A stretch of DNA of 33,490 nucleotides from Acidimicrobiia bacterium (lineage in GTDB: Bacteria > Actinomycetota > Acidimicrobiia > IMCC26256 > PALSA-555), in contig JBBECS010000013.1 of NCBI GenBank assembly GCA_040881685.1, forward strand, positions 1 through 33,490, read 5' to 3'. The notes under the pieces are model-generated. The model had not been told where the DNA came from. It saw only the letters and a list, made by a program, of their open reading frames with translations, and did no database searches. Both the position numbers and the translations under genes were made by a program. Shown piece after piece: positions 1,738 to 30,050 of this stretch. The first letter of the stretch is position 1. Each line of letters starts with the position of its first letter.

Positions 1738-2940
1738 TCATCCCCAGACGAGCGGGAGCTCCGCGGTCTGGCGGATGCCGAGCGAGTACGTGAGCTCGGT
1801 GCCGTCGGCGATGCGGTAGTCGGGGATGCGGCGGTGCCACTCCTCGAGCGCGATGCGCAGCTCGACCCGCGCCAGGTTCGAACCGAGGCACCGGTGGGGG
1901 CCGGCACCAAAGGCAAGGTGGCGATTGGCCTCACGAGAGAAGTCGACGCCGTTCGCGTCGGAGAACTCCGCGTCGTCGCTGTTCGCCGCGCCGATCAGGA
2001 TCGTCGCGTGGTCACCGGCCTTGAGCTGTTGGCCGGCGAGCTCGCAGTCCTCCTTGAGGACGCGGACCACCATCATCACCGGGCTCTGATGGCGAAGTAG
2101 CTCCTCGACGGCGACCGCGGCGAGCGCGGGATCGTCCACGACCGCTTGGCGCCGCCCCGGGTTGGCCGCGAGGTACGCCAGCGCGCAGTCGAGCGTGGCC
2201 GTGACGGTGTCGAGCCCACCGAGCATGAGCAGATGACAGATCCCCAGCGTCTCTTCCCGGTCGAGGGGGCGACCGTCGACCTCGCCGTGTGCGACGCGGG
2301 TCAACAACCGGTCGTCAGGATTCTTGCGGCGTTCCGCCACCATCTCCTCGAAGTACTCGCTGAGCTCGTGGCTGACGCGCTCCCGAGCCGCCGCTGCGGC
2401 CTCGAGGTCACCCACGGGCACGTCGGGACGGATGGTCTCGTCGCGCCACCTGAGGAACATCGGCAGATCCGACATGGGCAGGCCCATGAGCGCCAGGAAC
2501 ACCCCCGACGGCAGCGGGGTGGCGAGCTCTTCGTGCACGTTGCACGAACCGCGATCGATGAAGGTGTCGATCAGCGTGTTGACGAGCGTTCGCACCTCCG
2601 GCTCGAGCGCGTTCATCCGCTTCGGCGAGAACTCGGGATCGAGGAGCCGGCGGTACTTGGCGTGCTCGGGCGGATCGACCTGGAGGGGGATGAGCTTCTG
2701 CTCCTGGCCGATGTTCACCGCTTCGGGCGCGGAGGAGAACACCTCCGGGTGCTTCAACGACCAGATGACGTCCTCGTAGCGCGACACGATCACGTGCGGA
2801 TGCCCGTCCCAACCAGCACCTCGACTCACTGGGCATTCGGTGCGCAGCTTGTCGTACGCCTCGTGCGGGTGGTTGGCCACTGTGGGATCGAACAGCACCG
2901 CGCTGCCGTCGACACCGTCGGTCGTGTCGTAAGTGGTCAC
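1738..2940 (-). CDS. Cytochrome P450 (CYP)
   Basis: A haem-thiolate monooxygenase of 400 aa, the normal size for a soluble bacterial CYP. The I-helix is at about residues 237-250 with the oxygen-binding motif GGLDT (241-245). The K-helix ExxR is at E280-R283, and the haem loop FGAGPHRCLG places the axial cysteine at C351. It needs ferredoxin and reductase partners, which are not in this window. The start is GTG at 2940, overlapping the TetR stop by 4 bp (GTGA), with AGGAG about 10 nt upstream; the longer upstream frame is only the TetR gene read in another phase. Coupled translation to TetR and the downstream amidohydrolase suggest one regulated catabolic unit. The sequence alone does not give the substrate, although such CYPs often hydroxylate steroids, terpenes or fatty acids. 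Confidence 0.95.
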   Translation of the reverse strand: MTTYDTTDGVDGSAVLFDPTVANHPHEAYDKLRTECPVSRGAGWDGHPHVIVSRYEDVIWSLKHPEVFSSAPEAVNIGQEQKLIPLQVDPPEHAKYRRLLDPEFSPKRMNALEPEVRTLVNTLIDTFIDRGSCNVHEELATPLPSGVFLALMGLPMSDLPMFLRWRDETIRPDVPVGDLEAAAAARERVSHELSEYFEEMVAERRKNPDDRLLTRVAHGEVDGRPLDREETLGICHLLMLGGLDTVTATLDCALAYLAANPGRRQAVVDDPALAAVAVEELLRHQSPVMMVVRVLKEDCELAGQQLKAGDHATILIGAANSDDAEFSDANGVDFSREANRHLAFGAGPHRCLGSNLARVELRIALEEWHRRIPDYRIADGTELTYSLGIRQTAELPLVWG

Positions 2941-3614
2941 CGTTGTTCGTCTCCTGTCGTGGCAGATGTTCGGGACAGTCCCGCCCAGCAGAAGGACCAG
3001 AGATGCGTCGCTTGCTCGAGCGGCTCGGCGCGGCCGAGCGCAACGTCGTGGATGCCTTCCAACACGAGGGCGAACACGAGCTCCGCGTCGCGTGCCGCGT
3101 CGCGCGAGCCGCACGAGCCGGCGGCCGCCGCGGCGGCGATCTCCGCCTCGAGTCCGGCGATCATCGGTGCGAGCGCCCGTCGCAGCTCGTCGGGTCGCTC
3201 TTCGGAGAGGCGACGGTGCTCGCGCACCAGGACGCCCGCGTACCCGATCGCGCCGGGGTGCGTGAGCATCTCGAACACGCCCATCACGTACGCCCGCACT
3301 CGTGCCACGGGATCGGCGTGCTGCTCCATCATCTCGCCGAGGAGGGCGGCGCCGAGACGGCTGTCTTCTTCGATGAGCGCGACCAGCAGATCGTCCTTGC
3401 CTGCGAAGCAGCGGTAAAAGCTCTTGAGCGACAGCCCGGCCTGCGCCGTCACCTGCGTCACGGTGAAGGCCGCGCGTCCGGTCTCGTTGGCCAGCACGCG
3501 CGCCGCGTCAACGAGGCGCTCGAGACGCTCGACTGAGCGGGCGCGGGCCGCCTCTAGCGAGCGCTCGAGGGCCCGATCTCGCCAGGATGCACCGTTCGCC
3601 GTTTCGGAGAACAT
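2937..3614 (-). CDS. TetR-family transcriptional regulator
   Basis: A 225-aa repressor-type protein. The N-terminal helix-turn-helix occupies about residues 35-80: an AARVLA helix, TVTQVTAQAGLSLKSFYRCF as the HTH, then KDDLLVALIEE, the typical end of a TetR DNA-binding domain. The rest is an all-helical ligand/dimer domain. The start is ATG 3614-3612; the much longer open frame upstream has no domain and crosses the divergent promoter. A perfect 17-bp palindrome covers the Shine-Dalgarno and start codon, and a related inverted repeat lies 43 bp upstream, so autorepression is likely. The stop overlaps the P450 start by 4 bp. By family precedent the regulated target is its own operon, and perhaps also the divergent gene at 3720. 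Confidence 0.93.
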   Translation of the reverse strand: MFSETANGASWRDRALERSLEAARARSVERLERLVDAARVLANETGRAAFTVTQVTAQAGLSLKSFYRCFAGKDDLLVALIEEDSRLGAALLGEMMEQHADPVARVRAYVMGVFEMLTHPGAIGYAGVLVREHRRLSEERPDELRRALAPMIAGLEAEIAAAAAAGSCGSRDAARDAELVFALVLEGIHDVALGRAEPLEQATHLWSFCWAGLSRTSATTGDEQR

Positions 3615-23766: not shown

Positions 23767-24711
23767 TCAGCTGCTGCGGTTCATGCCGGCGCGCTCACCA
23801 CGAGCGACGAACTTCGTGGCCATCTTGCGGCTGGCCTCGTCGATCATCTCGTCACCGAACATGACCGCGCCTTTGCGCTCGCCGGCGCCGCCCTCAGTCG
23901 TCGCCTTCTCGTACGCATCGAGGATGTCCCACGCGTGGTCGAACTGCTCCTGGGTCGGCGTGAACACCTCGTTGATGACCTGCACCTGATCGGGGTGGAG
24001 CGCCCACTTCCCGTCGTAGCCGAGGATGCGGCTGCGCATCGAGTAGTCGCGCAAGGCGTCGAGCTCGCGGATCTTGAGGAACGGTCCGTCGATCACCTGG
24101 AGGCCGTTCGCACGCCCGGCCATCAGGATCTTCGAGTACACGTAATGGAAGTGGTCACCCGGGTACTCGGGGATCTGCACCCCGCCGGTGAGCACGGGCA
24201 TCTCGGTCGACGCGGCGAAGTCCGCCGGCCCGAACACGATCGTCTCCAAACGCGATGACGCGGCGCAGATCTCCTCCACGTTGATGAGGCCGCGTGCCGT
24301 CTCGATCTGCGGCTCGATCCCCACCGTCGACTGACGGCCGGTGACCTGCTCGATCTGCGTGAGGAGCATGTCGAGCGCCTGCACGTCTGCGGCTGATTGC
24401 ACCTTCGGCAGCATGATCTCGTCGAGGCGCTCCGACGCGTTCTCCACAACCTCGATCACATCGCGGTACGTCCATTCGGTGTCCCACGCGTTCACGCGCA
24501 CGCACAGAACGGTGTCGCCCCAGTCCTGTTCGTTGATCGCCTTGACGACGTTGACGCGAGCGGCTTCCTTCTCGAGCGGTGCCACTGCGTCCTCGAGATC
24601 GAGGAACACCATGTCGGCACCGAACCCCGGGGCCTTCCCGAGCATCTTGACGCTCGACCCCGGGACCGAGAGGCACGCCCGTCGAGGAAGGTTGCGGCTG
24701 CGCTCGGACAT
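23767..24711 (-). CDS. HpcH/CitE-type CoA lyase, probable L-malyl-/beta-methylmalyl-CoA lyase
   Basis: A 314-aa TIM-barrel lyase/aldolase of the CitE-Mcl family. LSVPGSSVKMLGKAPGFGAD gives the N-terminal strand, FLDLEDAVAPLEKEAAR the Mg/substrate region, and LCVRVNAWDTEW the first Arg of the active site. IMLPKVQSAADV, VGIEPQIETARGLIN (Glu, metal) and FGPADFAAS (Asp, metal) follow, then GYDGKWALHPDQV. Mcl1 splits beta-methylmalyl-CoA to glyoxylate and propionyl-CoA, and malyl-CoA to glyoxylate and acetyl-CoA. Its presence near MaoC and Mcd-type genes supports that use, though citrate-lyase beta-like or thioesterase (Mcl2) roles are possible. The start ATG 24711 is 6 nt after TACGGT (leaderless). 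It diverges from the MBL hydrolase, 28 bp away. Confidence 0.85.
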   Translation of the reverse strand: MSERSRNLPRRACLSVPGSSVKMLGKAPGFGADMVFLDLEDAVAPLEKEAARVNVVKAINEQDWGDTVLCVRVNAWDTEWTYRDVIEVVENASERLDEIMLPKVQSAADVQALDMLLTQIEQVTGRQSTVGIEPQIETARGLINVEEICAASSRLETIVFGPADFAASTEMPVLTGGVQIPEYPGDHFHYVYSKILMAGRANGLQVIDGPFLKIRELDALRDYSMRSRILGYDGKWALHPDQVQVINEVFTPTQEQFDHAWDILDAYEKATTEGGAGERKGAVMFGDEMIDEASRKMATKFVARGERAGMNRSS

Positions 24712-24717
24712 GTCCCA

Positions 24718-24733
24718 ACCGTACCGGTACGCT
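24718..24733. promoter_or_regulatory. Back-to-back leaderless -10 boxes sharing a palindrome
   Basis: Minus strand: TACGGT (24723-24718) then 6 nt and ATG 24711. Plus strand: TACGCT (24728-24733) then 6 nt and GTG 24740. The two boxes are 4 nt apart and are joined by the perfect palindrome GTACCGGTAC (24721-24730). Each -35 region would lie inside the opposite gene. Confidence 0.6.
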
Positions 24734-24739
24734 CGATTC

Positions 24740-25558
24740 GTGACCCAACCCGAGCTTGCCGAGCTCGCCGACGGCGTGTGGGCATGGCTCCAGCCCGGCG
24801 GAGAGACCGGGGTTAGCAACGCCGGTGTGATCGCCGACGACGACGGCCTCACCCTCGTCGACACCCTGATGGTGCGCTCGCAATGGGAGCCGTTCGCCGC
24901 GGCGGTCGCCGAGCTCGACCTCACGGTCAAGCGCGTGGTGCTCACGCACGCCCACGTCGACCACGTCGGCGGTACGACCATGTTCCGGAACGCGGCGGTC
25001 TATGCCTCGCCGGTGACCAGCGACCTCCTCGACCAGCCCATGGCGCTCGACGCCTACAAGGCGTTCATGCCCGCGTTCGCCGACGAGTTCGACGATCTCG
25101 CCGAGCTCGGCACCCGACCGGTGAGCCACCTCGTGGAGGGCGCCGCCAACCTCACCCCGCGTACGGAGGTCCTGCCCGCGGCCGGGCACACCCCGGGTGA
25201 CGTGATGGTGCTCGTCGCCGACGCGGACGTGCTCTTCGCGGGCGACCTGTGCTTCTTCGGCGTCACGCCGCTGGCGTTCCAAGGCGACCCGCAGCAGTGG
25301 GCGAACGTGCTCGACGCGATCGTGGAGCTCGCCGACACGATCGTCCCCGGTCACGGACCGGTGGGCGGTGAACGCGAGGTGCGCGAGCTCCAGGACTACC
25401 TGCGGCACTGCGTCGCCGGCACGATTCCGCCCGGACCGTGGGACGACTGGCTCGATCGCGCCGAGCGTGACCCGATCAACATCGAGCGCGCCGCGCTTCT
25501 GCGCGACAAGAAAGACGTGATCCCTCCGAGCATGCTGAAGGCCATCGGCCTGGGCTGA
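24740..25558 (+). CDS. MBL-fold metallo-hydrolase
   Basis: A 272-aa metallo-beta-lactamase-fold protein with the complete metal set: HAHVDH (His70, His72, Asp74, His75), AAGHTPGD, VLFAGDLCFF (bridging Asp) and IVPGHGPV. The central part (SDLLDQPMALDAYKAFMPAF) is specific to a subgroup of actinobacterial hydrolases with no assigned substrate. The size and motif set resemble glyoxalase II/quinoprotein-relay-type enzymes. The start GTG 24740 is 6 nt after TACGCT, with no Shine-Dalgarno. It is divergent from the CoA lyase gene and 28 bp upstream of the thioredoxin-fold gene in the same direction. A thioesterase or lactonase role linked to the CoA pathway would be a reasonable idea but is not shown. 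Confidence 0.87.
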   Translation: MTQPELAELADGVWAWLQPGGETGVSNAGVIADDDGLTLVDTLMVRSQWEPFAAAVAELDLTVKRVVLTHAHVDHVGGTTMFRNAAVYASPVTSDLLDQPMALDAYKAFMPAFADEFDDLAELGTRPVSHLVEGAANLTPRTEVLPAAGHTPGDVMVLVADADVLFAGDLCFFGVTPLAFQGDPQQWANVLDAIVELADTIVPGHGPVGGEREVRELQDYLRHCVAGTIPPGPWDDWLDRAERDPINIERAALLRDKKDVIPPSMLKAIGLG

Positions 25559-25586: not shown

Positions 25587-26069
25587 ATGGCGAAGAGCCC
25601 CGACCCCGAGCTGAAGCTCACCACGAGCCGCGGCGTCACCCGCACGCTCGACGATTGGTCGACGATGTTCCACCTCTGCCTGGTGGTGCTCCCGGCCCGG
25701 TCCGAGGCGGCGTCGTTCGTGCCGATCGGCATGCGCCTGTTCTCGGTGTTCGGTGACGCCGACTGTCGGTTCGCATTCGTGGTCACCGGTCCTGAGTCGG
25801 TCGCGAAGCGACTCCTCGGCGACGCGGAGTCGAACGTCGTCACGTACGTCGACCCCGATCGTGAGCTGGTGCAGAGCCTCGGGCTCGAGCGCCTTCCCGC
25901 CTTCGTGTTGTTGCGCCAGGACACCACGCTCGTCACCGCCACCGAAGGCTGGGATCCGAAGGACTGGCAGCGGGTCGCGCGCGAGACCGGACGACTGCTG
26001 GCCTGGACCGTCCCAGAGGTCGCCGCCGACGGCGATCCACCAGCCTTCGCGGGCTGGGCAGCCGTCTGA
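25587..26069 (+). CDS. Thioredoxin-fold protein without CxxC
   Basis: A 160-aa protein. It starts KLTTSRGVTRTLDDWSTMFH, has CLVVLPARSEAASF and then ADCRFAFVVTGPESVAKRLL. The later part, NVVTYVDPDRELVQSLG and LERLPAFVLLRQDTTLVTATEG, looks like a thioredoxin-like fold: a strand, LPAFV in the position of the cis-proline loop, then a beta-hairpin with a final helix (DPKDWQRVARETGRLL). No CxxC motif exists, so it is probably not a redox enzyme. The start ATG 25587 is 8 nt after TACGCT. It lies between the MBL hydrolase and the NlpC/P60 gene. Conserved actinobacterial proteins of this type exist, but I know no function. Confidence 0.72.
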   Translation: MAKSPDPELKLTTSRGVTRTLDDWSTMFHLCLVVLPARSEAASFVPIGMRLFSVFGDADCRFAFVVTGPESVAKRLLGDAESNVVTYVDPDRELVQSLGLERLPAFVLLRQDTTLVTATEGWDPKDWQRVARETGRLLAWTVPEVAADGDPPAFAGWAAV

Positions 26070-26194: not shown

Positions 26195-27202
26195 ATGCAC
26201 ATCCTCCGCAAGTTGATCGTCACAGCCGTGGTGCTCGCCAGCGCCGCGGCGGTGCCGGCGACTGCGGGCGCGGCGGCGAGCCGGGACAAGCAAGCCGAGG
26301 CCGCGGCGCTCCAGGATCAGATCGAGGCCACCGATCTCCAGATCAGCGCGCTGGCCGAGCAGCTCAACGAGGCCGCGGCACGGCGTGATGCCCACCAGGC
26401 GTCGGTGAAGGAAGCCGAGGCGAGAATCGCCGCCGCGAAAGAAGAGGTGCAACGCATCCTCGGCATCGTTCGCGACAACGCCGTCTCGCTCTACCGACAG
26501 CACTCGACCGGTTCCGTGGCCTGGAACACCGGGAAGCCGTCCGACCTCGTGTCGCGGGATCAGTACGCCGAGGCACAGGCCGAGCGGGACAACGAGCTCC
26601 TGAACAAGCTGGACGTCGCGCAGCAGGACCTTCACCTCCGACGGGCCGACGCAACGCGGGCGCGAGACGCAGCCGCGTTCGAGACCGACGCGATCAACAC
26701 GCACAAGGCCGCGTGGGACGCAGCGCGCGCACAACAGCAGGCGTTGCTCAACCAGGTCAAGGGAGAGATCGCCGCCGAGATCGCCGCCGAACGCGCCCGC
26801 CGCGCTGCCGCGGCACGTGCGCTGTTCGATCCGAACGTCGGCCCACCCAACGGGAGCGCCGCCCAGGCGATCGCCTACGCGCGCGCGGTGATCGGCGCCG
26901 GCTACTCGACGAACCCCCGCACCGGCCCCACCTACGACTGCTCCGGCCTCACCTGGTCGGCATGGCACGCCGCGGGTGTCAGCATCCCCAACAGCTCCGG
27001 TGGCCAGTACAACGGCTTGCCCAAGGTCCCGATCGCGGCGGCTCAGCCCGGTGACTTGATCTTCTGGGGCCCCGGCGGATCGAGCCATGTCGCGCTGTAT
27101 GTCGGCGGCGGGATGATCATCGACGCCTCGAGCGGACAGGGACAGGTCGTCGAGCGACCGATCTGGGGAAGCCCACTGCCGTGGGCGGCGCGGGTCGTCT
27201 GA
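26195..27202 (+). CDS. Secreted NlpC/P60 peptidoglycan endopeptidase (RipA-like layout)
   Basis: A 335-aa protein. Residues 1-29 are a signal peptide (MHILRKLIVTAVVLASAAAV, AxA cleavage). Residues about 31-205 are long coiled-coil helices (QIEATDLQISALAEQLNEA, KEEVQRIL), and residues 220-335 are an NlpC/P60 domain. The active site has Cys249 in TYDCSGLTWSAW and His298 in SSHVALYVGGG, with Asp310 (MIIDASS) at the place of the third polar residue, which is usually His or Glu. Such coiled-coil plus NlpC proteins (RipA, PcsB-like) cut D-iGlu-diaminopimelate bonds during division; the coiled coil usually holds the catalytic part inactive until FtsX-type activation. The start ATG 26195 is chosen because it opens the signal peptide; 22 upstream codons are not protein-like. 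SelD overlaps or follows at once. Confidence 0.92.
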   Translation: MHILRKLIVTAVVLASAAAVPATAGAAASRDKQAEAAALQDQIEATDLQISALAEQLNEAAARRDAHQASVKEAEARIAAAKEEVQRILGIVRDNAVSLYRQHSTGSVAWNTGKPSDLVSRDQYAEAQAERDNELLNKLDVAQQDLHLRRADATRARDAAAFETDAINTHKAAWDAARAQQQALLNQVKGEIAAEIAAERARRAAAARALFDPNVGPPNGSAAQAIAYARAVIGAGYSTNPRTGPTYDCSGLTWSAWHAAGVSIPNSSGGQYNGLPKVPIAAAQPGDLIFWGPGGSSHVALYVGGGMIIDASSGQGQVVERPIWGSPLPWAARVV

Positions 27203-28335
27203 GTCCTTCTTCGGGCACGCACGGGAATCCGATCGTCGAGGAGCCCGTTCGCCTCACGCAGTTCTCGCACGGCGCCGGATGCGCGTGCAAGCTCTCCCCC
27301 GCCGACCTGCGGACCATCCTCGGGCTCGTGCGCGGCTTCGACGCCGAGAACAGCTCGCACGACGACCTCATCGTGGGTTTCGGAACCGCCGACGACGCCG
27401 CGGTCTACCGCCTCCGGGATGACCTCGCCATCGTCGTGACCACTGACTTCTTCACCCCGATCGTCGACGATCCCTACGACTGGGGCCGCATCGCCGCAAC
27501 GAACGCACTCTCCGACGTGTACGCGATGGGCGGGGCTCCGGTGCTCGCGCTCAATCTCGTGGCCTGGCCGCGTGAAGGGCTCCCGTTCGAACTCCTCGCT
27601 CGAGTGCTCGACGGCGGCGCCGACGTGGTGCGCGACGCCGGCGCAGTGATCGGTGGTGGCCACTCGATCGACGACGCCGAGCCCAAGTTCGGGCTGGCCG
27701 TGGTCGGGACCGTCGATCCCCGCCACGTGCTCACGAACGCCGGAGCCCGGGCCGGCGACGCACTCGTGCTCACGAAGCCGATCGGTCTGGGCGTGATCTC
27801 GACCGCGGTGAAGCGTGACGCCGCACCGGGCTCGCTCATCGCCGAGGCCGTGCGCGTGATGACCACACTCAACGCGGGGGCACGTGACGCCGCGCTCGAA
27901 CTCGGCGACGCGGTTCACGCCGCAACCGACATCACCGGCTTCGGGCTGCTCGGTCATCTGCGCGAGATGCTCATGGGGTCGGAGCTCGGCGCCGAGCTCG
28001 ACGTGTCGGCGGTGCCGGTGATCGACGGCGTGCGGGACCTCCTCGCGCAGGGCATGGTCGCCGGAGGCACACAGCGCAATCACGCATTCGTGAGCGAGCA
28101 CATCGACTGGGGTGATCTGCCGATCGATGAGCAGATGCTCCTCGCCGACGCACAGACCAGCGGCGGCCTGCTCATCGCCGTCGAAGCGGACCGCGCCGGC
28201 GACCTCGTGGGTGCGCTGGAAGCACGGGGTGCGCTGGCCGCAGCAACGGTGGGAGTCGCCACTCGCGACCAGCCGGGTTACGTTCGCATCATTCGCTCGG
28301 GCAGCAGGGGTAAGGAGCGGCCCCCACACCCGTGA
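27181..28335 (+). CDS. selD: Selenide, water dikinase (selenophosphate synthetase)
   Basis: A 384-aa (378-aa if started later) SelD that makes selenophosphate from selenide and ATP. The glycine-rich N-terminal loop reads HGAGCACKLSP, with the catalytic cysteine (C34 by this start, the place of E. coli Cys17) and Lys37, so this is a Cys form, not a selenoprotein. It continues with GFGTADDAAVYRL, VTTDFFTPIVDDPYDWGRIA, ATNALSDVYAMGG (PurM-like ATP site), GGGHSIDDAEPKFGLAV, and ITGFGLLGHLREM. The start is unclear: GTG 27181 overlaps the NlpC gene by 22 nt, while CTG 27199 would overlap its TGA as CTGA; no ATG lies before the motif. No selA, selB, tRNA-Sec or selU is in the window. Confidence 0.93.
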   Translation: MGGAGRLSPSSGTHGNPIVEEPVRLTQFSHGAGCACKLSPADLRTILGLVRGFDAENSSHDDLIVGFGTADDAAVYRLRDDLAIVVTTDFFTPIVDDPYDWGRIAATNALSDVYAMGGAPVLALNLVAWPREGLPFELLARVLDGGADVVRDAGAVIGGGHSIDDAEPKFGLAVVGTVDPRHVLTNAGARAGDALVLTKPIGLGVISTAVKRDAAPGSLIAEAVRVMTTLNAGARDAALELGDAVHAATDITGFGLLGHLREMLMGSELGAELDVSAVPVIDGVRDLLAQGMVAGGTQRNHAFVSEHIDWGDLPIDEQMLLADAQTSGGLLIAVEADRAGDLVGALEARGALAAATVGVATRDQPGYVRIIRSGSRGKERPPHP

Positions 28336-28387: not shown

Positions 28388-29395
28388 CTAGGGGATGACG
28401 AGCATCCCGAGCTCGGCTTCGAGCTGCGGGCGGGGCTTCGCGCCGAGCGCGGACCGTTCGAGACGGCCGCTGCGGAACATCGCGATCATCGGGATGCTCT
28501 GCACCTCGTACTGCTGCGCGAGTGACGGCTCTTCGTCGATGTTGACCTTGACAACCTTGTAGGAGCCCTCGCGCATCGCGGCGATCTGCTCGACGATGGG
28601 CGAGACCTGGCGGCACGGCTGGCACCACGGCGCCCAGAAGTCGACGATCACCGGCAGCTCTGAGCGAAGCACCTCGGCGTCCCACTGCGCCGTCGTGACC
28701 GGACGAACGAGCGGCTCCGGTGGAGGCTCCGGAAGCGCCTCACTCGGACGCTCACCAGAGCTCACGGCAAGGAGCCATTCGTGCGCCTGCTGCACGCTCT
28801 CCATCGCGACCTGGTGCTCCATCGGGTACTCGCTGTACACGACGGGCACACCATGTTCGGCAAGCGCCGTCGCGAGCGAGCGCCCGCGCTCGACGTCCAT
28901 GAGCGGGTCATTCGTGCCGTGCTGCACGAGGAACGGGATCTCCTTGGCTGCGTCCCAGTCGAGCTCAAGACCGTCGATGTCGGGGAGATAGCCGCTCATG
29001 GCGATCACACCGGCCGGATGCGGTCGGTCGCTGCGCCGTAGCCCCAGCGCGACCGCGAGTGCGCCCCCCTGTGAGAACCCGCCGATGATCGCCTCGCCGC
29101 GCTGCTTGTCGTGCTCGGCACACACCGTGTCGATGAGGTCGTCGAGCTCGTCCAGCGCCGCGACGAACGAGGTATCTGCACCGTGCCCACCCTCGGTGAT
29201 CGCGGCGAGGTCGTACCAGGCGAAACCCGGCGGCGCGGCCACCGGCCCGCGCGGCAACACGGTGAGGAAGCGGCCTTCGGGGTCGAGGTACGGCAACAGA
29301 CCGCCGAGGTCACGCTCGTCGGCGCCGTAGCCATGGATGAGCATCAGCATCCGAGCCGCCTGCGGTGTTCCGACGACGTTGTGGATCAGTGCCAT
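28388..29395 (-). CDS. Alpha/beta hydrolase-thioredoxin fusion protein
   Basis: A 335-aa two-domain protein. Residues 5-210 are an alpha/beta hydrolase of the phospholipase/carboxylesterase (PF02230-type) family: MLMLIHGYGADERDL (oxyanion side), IIGGFSQGGALA with Ser108, HGTNDPLMD with Asp163 and YPMEHQVAMES with His194, a complete triad. Residues 211-230 are a Pro/Glu-rich linker. Residues 232-335 are a thioredoxin: PVIVDFWAPWCQPCRQVSP (Cys258, Cys261), VVKVNIDEEPSLAQQYEV and the cis-Pro in QSIPMIAMF (Pro302). The active site is WCQPC instead of the usual WCGPC. There is no signal peptide, so it is cytosolic. The start ATG 29395 has GGAG eight bases upstream; the longer frame runs into the divergent gene. 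The substrate and purpose of the fusion are unknown. Confidence 0.9.
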   Translation of the reverse strand: MALIHNVVGTPQAARMLMLIHGYGADERDLGGLLPYLDPEGRFLTVLPRGPVAAPPGFAWYDLAAITEGGHGADTSFVAALDELDDLIDTVCAEHDKQRGEAIIGGFSQGGALAVALGLRRSDRPHPAGVIAMSGYLPDIDGLELDWDAAKEIPFLVQHGTNDPLMDVERGRSLATALAEHGVPVVYSEYPMEHQVAMESVQQAHEWLLAVSSGERPSEALPEPPPEPLVRPVTTAQWDAEVLRSELPVIVDFWAPWCQPCRQVSPIVEQIAAMREGSYKVVKVNIDEEPSLAQQYEVQSIPMIAMFRSGRLERSALGAKPRPQLEAELGMLVIP

Positions 29396-29462
29396 GTTCC
29401 GAACTCCATCAAAATGGCGAATCTCGTTCGCTGCGTTCCGACGATGATGGCACGCTCGGTCC

Positions 29463-30050
29463 ATGGGTCCGGCCGTCCCCGATCTGCACGATGACGTGGT
29501 CGTCCTCCGTCCACCCAGAGAGGACGACGTCGACGCCATCACGGCGGCCGTCCAAGACCCCGAGATCCCTCGTTACACACGAATCCCGTCGCCGTACACG
29601 CGCAACGACGCGACACAATTCGTCCGAGCCGCCATCGAGAACTGGAGCGGCGGTCGTCTCCCGCGCGTCCCGGCTGGTGACGCGCAGATCGGGCTGTCCT
29701 TCATGATCGTCGACCGCTCCGACGACAGCCTGATCGGTGGAATCGGGACCCACGACAGCGAGAATCCGGAGGTTCGGGAGATCGGCTACTGGGTCGCCCG
29801 AGATGCACGCCGACGGGGCATCGCGACCCGGGCCGTTCGGTTGCTGTCGAGATGGGCGATCAACGAGCTCGGCCTTCGTCGCCTCGAGCTCATGACCCAC
29901 GTCGACAACGTGGCGTCCCAGGGCGTCGCCGAGCGCGCCGGCTTCACGCGCGAGGGCGTGCTGCGGTCGTACACCACGCTCGGGTGCGGCTTGGCCGATG
30001 TCGTGATGTTCTCCCTGCTTCCGGAAGACTTGACCGCGCCCAACGGGTAA
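29463..30050 (+). CDS. GNAT-family N-acetyltransferase (RimJ/RimL type)
   Basis: A 195-aa acetyltransferase of the GCN5 superfamily, type 3 (ribosomal-protein alanine acetyltransferase-like). VVVLRPPREDDVDAITAAVQD is the first strand and helix, MIVDRSDDSLIGGIGTHD a core beta-hairpin, and EIGYWVARDARRRGIATRAV the acetyl-CoA-binding R/Q-x-x-G-x-A (motif A). Then come LRRLELMTHVDNVASQGVAER (motif B) and AGFTREGVLRSYTTL. It would move an acetyl group from acetyl-CoA to an amine; the acceptor is unknown. The start is ATG 29463 and it diverges from the hydrolase-thioredoxin gene across 67 bp. A 66-bp gap separates it from the ECF sigma gene downstream. Confidence 0.92.
   Translation: MGPAVPDLHDDVVVLRPPREDDVDAITAAVQDPEIPRYTRIPSPYTRNDATQFVRAAIENWSGGRLPRVPAGDAQIGLSFMIVDRSDDSLIGGIGTHDSENPEVREIGYWVARDARRRGIATRAVRLLSRWAINELGLRRLELMTHVDNVASQGVAERAGFTREGVLRSYTTLGCGLADVVMFSLLPEDLTAPNG

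Follow-up and report, generated by a model that had tools for sequence, protein, structure and literature searches.

The window, by which we mean the whole stretch of 33,490 nucleotides that was analyzed, carries on its minus strand a gene (28388..29395) in which an alpha/beta hydrolase and a thioredoxin are fused into one protein of 335 amino acids. Translation of 28391-29395 gave an uninterrupted coding frame from an ATG at 29395 to a stop codon at 28390-28388; the longer GTG frame at 28388-29542 merely adds an open stretch upstream of this ATG, which is the conserved start. The hydrolase domain occupies residues 1-215 (28751..29395), as supported by Pfam, alignment, AlphaFold and Foldseek, and is followed by a Pro/Glu-rich linker at residues 216-229 (28709..28750), the length of which varies among relatives, and by the thioredoxin domain at residues 230-335 (28391..28708), as supported by Pfam, NCBIfam and alignment. 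No signal peptide was apparent when the N-terminus was read by eye. The first-pass annotation had described both domains in a single frame with no frame break, and this was confirmed by the translation, by the Pfam matches, and by the recurrence of the gene in one open frame in 46 of the 58 genomes of the order to which the window belongs. The key residues that it had named (Ser108, Asp163, His194, Cys258, Cys261 and Pro302) are correctly placed, and none of them varies among the 48 aligned fusions. An assembly error is excluded by the same frame in those 46 genomes and in 3/3 genomes of family f37, which belongs to a different actinobacterial class.

The N-terminal half matches Abhydrolase_2 (PF02230) over residues 12-208 with 75.3 bits against a gathering cut-off of 23 bits (E 7.8e-21), and this score, together with the complete catalytic triad (Ser108, 29074-29072; Asp163, 28909-28907; His194, 28816-28814), places it in that family. 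An AlphaFold model built from the 48 aligned fusions contains two well-folded domains (mean pLDDT 92.9, pTM 0.81), which Foldseek matched as separate regions to carboxylesterases and APT1/2 and to thioredoxins. The folds nearest to the hydrolase are the carboxylesterases 1auo and 3cn7 (PA3859), and among solved structures the nearest relatives are thioredoxins, both bacterial ones and reconstructed ancestral ones, and PA3859. The hydrolase has its fold, triad and GFSQG nucleophile elbow in common with the carboxylesterases and acyl-protein thioesterases of PF02230 (1auo from P. fluorescens, 3cn7, APT1/APT2, and 4f21 from Francisella), with TM-scores of 0.75-0.83 on target length and 20-32% identity, although these relatives are single-domain proteins without a thioredoxin. 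We infer that it cleaves the acyl group of an ester or thioester, and that it is of the acyl-protein- or small-molecule-thioesterase type; the sequence does not distinguish thioesterase from oxygen-esterase activity.

The C-terminal half matches Thioredoxin (PF00085) over residues 232-328 (85.4 against 23.5 bits, E 3.2e-24) and also passes the cut-off of the NCBIfam equivalog TIGR01068 (99.8 against 96.8 bits). Along with the WCxPC active site, which reads WCQPC in the window protein (residues 257-261, 28627-28613), and cis-Pro302 (28492-28490), the residues Asp252, Lys283 and Gly318 of this domain are invariant in the 48 fusions, so that the fused thioredoxin has the WCxPC, the cis-Pro, and the equivalents of the buried Asp, the Lys and Gly92 in common with bacterial TrxA/TrxC of TIGR01068. 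Gln259 had been proposed to alter the redox potential relative to the usual Gly. The middle residue of the motif is variable within the family (Gly in 27 fusions, Gln in 15, Glu in three, Ala in two and Val in one), requiring at least 11 changes on the tree, and the idea of WCQPC as a special redox motif was therefore rejected. Gln259 is best read from the alignment as one tolerated variant, and not as the key to function.

Over a common set of 20 genomes, pairwise identity averaged 77% among the fused thioredoxins, 74% among stand-alone TrxA proteins (most of them identified through the position of their genes next to trxB) and 59% among the hydrolases. These values indicate that the thioredoxin half is not decaying and that, by this measure, it is as constrained as stand-alone TrxA. 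It differs from the TrxA of the same genomes in having Met/Leu after the cis-Pro, fixed M-R, Y-K and E-R pairs, and a C-terminus, AELGMLVIP (residues 327-335, 28391..28417), that substitutes for the final part of the last TrxA helix. The fixed changes comprise M274, R275, Y279, K280, V282, R308, E313, R314, R322, E326 and A327 in addition to this C-terminus. By E. coli thioredoxin numbering (fusion residue minus 226), most of the fusion-specific residues fall at the pole that faces away from the active site, suggesting that the hydrolase, or another subunit, may dock there and leave the CxPC free.

Besides the 46 genomes with an intact fusion, the order includes one genome (G051) whose gene is interrupted by contig ends, three members of family f15 that have a hydrolase-only form (seen only as a fragment in G035), and eight genomes without a strong match. 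Four of these eight (f11 and G037) are 94-97% complete, indicating that the fusion is dispensable. Among 296 genomes sampled from the class, only unfused hydrolases were found outside the order, and 396 genomes of the phylum gave no full-length match beyond the order and f37. Free-standing versions had been suggested as a point of comparison; the hydrolase does occur alone, in f15, and no free copy of the fused thioredoxin type was found within the order. A mobile origin was considered and rejected, as no plasmid record spans both halves and viral matches were confined to the thioredoxin half (34-46% identity). The f37 copies (L110, L111 and L112, in the small class of G066) have no shared synteny. 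One genome of the order also contains a second, diverged fusion copy (L024, 3224-4294 on contig C1 of G028), which has a linker of 40 residues and lacks C92. The fusion is real, old and strictly conserved.

The thioredoxin halves of the 48 fusions lie on one side of a branch that separates them from the nearest stand-alone thioredoxins (SH-aLRT 99, from few alignment columns), and because they form one clade we conclude from this tree that there was a single fusion event. In the hydrolase trees, the fusions and f15 form one group, outside which lie the unfused hydrolases from other orders in the class; L026, which is drawn as standing alone, corresponds to the G051 gene, truncated where its contig ends. 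In f15, the hydrolase gene and selD are convergent, as they are in the window (in L021, selD at 857-1927 and hydrolase at 2764-3465), and an unrelated membrane-protein-like gene, with no thioredoxin, lies between the two. Neither f15 nor the single, truncated gene of G051 thus represents the two domains as separate adjacent genes, an arrangement that was not seen in any relative. The f15 proteins end in GERPTEPVPAFEGAGDL and GQRPAEPVAG, that is, within the linker common to the fusions (GERPSEPVP...), whereas unfused homologues from other orders terminate before it, and the hydrolase tree places f15 beside a fused f7 gene with a support of 88. These two observations favor the view that f15 lost its thioredoxin later, rather than having retained an unfused ancestral form, although an AU test between the two gave p 0.37. 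As to the direction of transfer between the order and the class of f37, AU tests rejected neither arrangement (p 0.12 and 0.37), and the fusion may be present in f37 either by transfer or by deep vertical descent.

The fusion gene is divergent from an upstream GNAT gene and faces selD (27181-28335, plus strand; TIGR00476, 403 bits) convergently, an arrangement conserved in many, if not most, families of the order. Genes for an MBL-fold protein, a 160-residue thioredoxin-fold protein and an NlpC/P60 protein, followed by selD and, on the opposite strand, the fusion, make up a stretch common to much of the order. No operon partner is conserved, and the upstream neighbors vary (GNAT, chloride channel, luciferase-like oxidase, permease). 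An obligatory link to selenium through selD was considered and rejected, since selD was not found near the f37 copies or in the stretches L139, L146, L148 and L151, where the fusion is retained. Thioredoxin reductase is encoded, and in G000 its gene is immediately adjacent to that of a stand-alone TrxA (C17:108610-109506 and 109573-109932), so that reducing power for the thioredoxin is at hand. An MshC-like ligase, scoring below its curated cut-off, makes a mycothiol setting likely.

Taken together, these data lead us to propose, with a probability of roughly 45%, that the protein is a bifunctional cytosolic enzyme combining acyl(thio)esterase activity and a dedicated disulfide reductase. Anatomy, single origin, constraint and range are shown by the sequences, and the activities are predicted. 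It would be a soluble, two-headed enzyme with a Ser-Asp-His hydrolase of PF02230 and a CxPC thioredoxin on one polypeptide, the former cleaving an ester or thioester acyl group and the latter actively reducing disulfides and being recharged in turn by the thioredoxin reductase that the genome encodes. The thioredoxin would pack against the hydrolase, or against another subunit, through the pole opposite its active site, exposing the CxPC, and the two domains would have their thiol-bearing targets in common, with the hydrolase freeing a masked (acylated) thiol, or processing an ester bound to it, and the thioredoxin keeping the freed thiol reduced or returning it to that state. The two domains scoring above curated cut-offs and the invariance of the triad, CxPC, cis-Pro and thioredoxin Asp, Lys and Gly in the 48 fusions argue for this proposal, as do the slow evolution of the thioredoxin half, its single clade and fusion-specific fixed residues, the encoded thioredoxin reductase and the confident model. 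Against it stand the survival of the hydrolase without a thioredoxin in f15 (L021, L022), implying that the thioredoxin is not needed for hydrolysis itself, the absence of the gene from eight genomes of the order, and the lack of a conserved operon partner that would point to a substrate. A shared thiol-bearing substrate is the weakest step of the proposal, and we regard it as rather doubtful. Deacylation of redox partners, as suggested in the first-pass annotation, is possible; the most far-reaching reading, a dedicated deacylase-reductase that removes the acyl group from a protein or a low-molecular-weight thiol and afterwards maintains the released thiol in its reduced form, is improbable in our estimation, but if true it would reveal that bacteria couple redox repair to reversible S-acylation (or acyl-thiol damage).

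Alternatively, the thioredoxin half could function mainly in binding or docking, either of oxidized or unfolded clients or in oligomerization through its C-terminus, with redox activity being secondary; such a role has been proposed for some thioredoxin-fold chaperone fusions. AELGMLVIP is 97% conserved over the 48 fusions, yet its last five residues have a mean pLDDT of only 68 (low model confidence), as would be expected of a segment that requires a partner, and the clustering of fusion-specific residues away from the active site, as deduced from thioredoxin topology, is consistent with the same role. A pure docking module would, however, be free to lose CxPC, cis-Pro, Asp252 and Lys283, which are invariant in 48/48 fusions, and we consider this explanation unlikely.

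Redox control of the hydrolase was put forward when the fusion was first noticed, and could operate if the tethered thioredoxin reduced Cys92, or formed a mixed disulfide with it, thereby switching the hydrolase on or off. The window protein contains only three cysteines (C92, C258 and C261), and C92 is present in 44 of the 48 fusions and missing from most distant unfused homologues. However, it is replaced in L010, L016, L024 and L112, and it also occurs in the unfused hydrolases of f15 and of L025, from another order, indicating that it predates the fusion. A switch based on a cysteine pair within the hydrolase is not supported, as C92 is its single common cysteine and there is no second conserved one with which to form an internal disulfide. 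Since f15 moreover retains the hydrolase without a thioredoxin, the case for redox control is weakened and this reading now appears quite unlikely; a C92-C258 bridge is possible but cannot explain the fusion throughout the family.

The protein might instead be an MhqD-like carboxylesterase that detoxifies electrophile or quinone derivatives, its attached thiol reductase dealing with the accompanying redox damage. Matches to the NCBIfam MhqD model (NF047577) occur in 48/48 fusions, the best at 7.4e-14, and the mycothiol setting suggested by the MshC-like ligase would suit such a role, but the matches are weak, the window protein reaching 31.4 bits against the equivalog cut-off of 325, and no regulator or quinone gene is adjacent, making this explanation very improbable. 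A neutral fusion that placed two unrelated activities under one promoter would account for the solitary f15 hydrolase and for the lack of a known shared partner, but is hardly credible given a slowly evolving thioredoxin half with fusion-specific fixed residues, the persistence of the gene over most families, and the lack of a free copy of this thioredoxin type in the order.

Thioredoxin is also covalently attached to an enzyme in the MsrAB-thioredoxin protein PilB, plant APS reductase and TrxB-Trx fusions, and in these the partners exchange electrons with the thioredoxin during the catalytic cycle, unlike the serine hydrolase of the fusion described here. CnoX/YbbN, a Trx-TPR chaperedoxin, likewise carries its thioredoxin domain within a larger cytosolic protein, but it differs from the fusion in having TPRs in place of a hydrolase and the reverse domain order, and the CxPC is intact in the fusion. 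Fusions of thioredoxin to an enzyme usually name the redox partner of that enzyme. With a serine hydrolase, which has no redox step, the fusion would point to a link between acyl-ester or thioester hydrolysis and thiol reduction, a link that is not described in the open-access literature searched. Targeted full-text searches of that literature for PF02230 with PF00085, and for esterase-, hydrolase- or carboxylesterase-thioredoxin fusions, found no description, in agreement with the earlier remark that no role is described for this combination. The age and conservation of the fusion, and a size that permits expression and assay, make the question directly testable.

Two further features of the neighborhood deserve mention. 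The 160-residue protein near the fusion (25587-26069, plus strand) has no Pfam or NCBIfam match and is conserved across the order; its model (pLDDT 94.8) matches ResA, DsbE and peroxiredoxin folds with Foldseek E-values of about 1e-8. LPARSEAAS replaces the CxxC, leaving no active-site cysteine, and the cis-Pro-like loop LERLPAF is kept, so that it is apparently a conserved, redox-dead thioredoxin-fold protein. Upstream of it, an HpcH/HpaI aldolase frame (23767-24981, minus strand) overlaps the MBL-fold frame (24341-25558, plus strand; 407 amino acids), of which about 150 N-terminal residues are unmatched by profiles. The profile matches of the two frames do not overlap, indicating that one or both proteins start downstream of the beginning of the longest frame.
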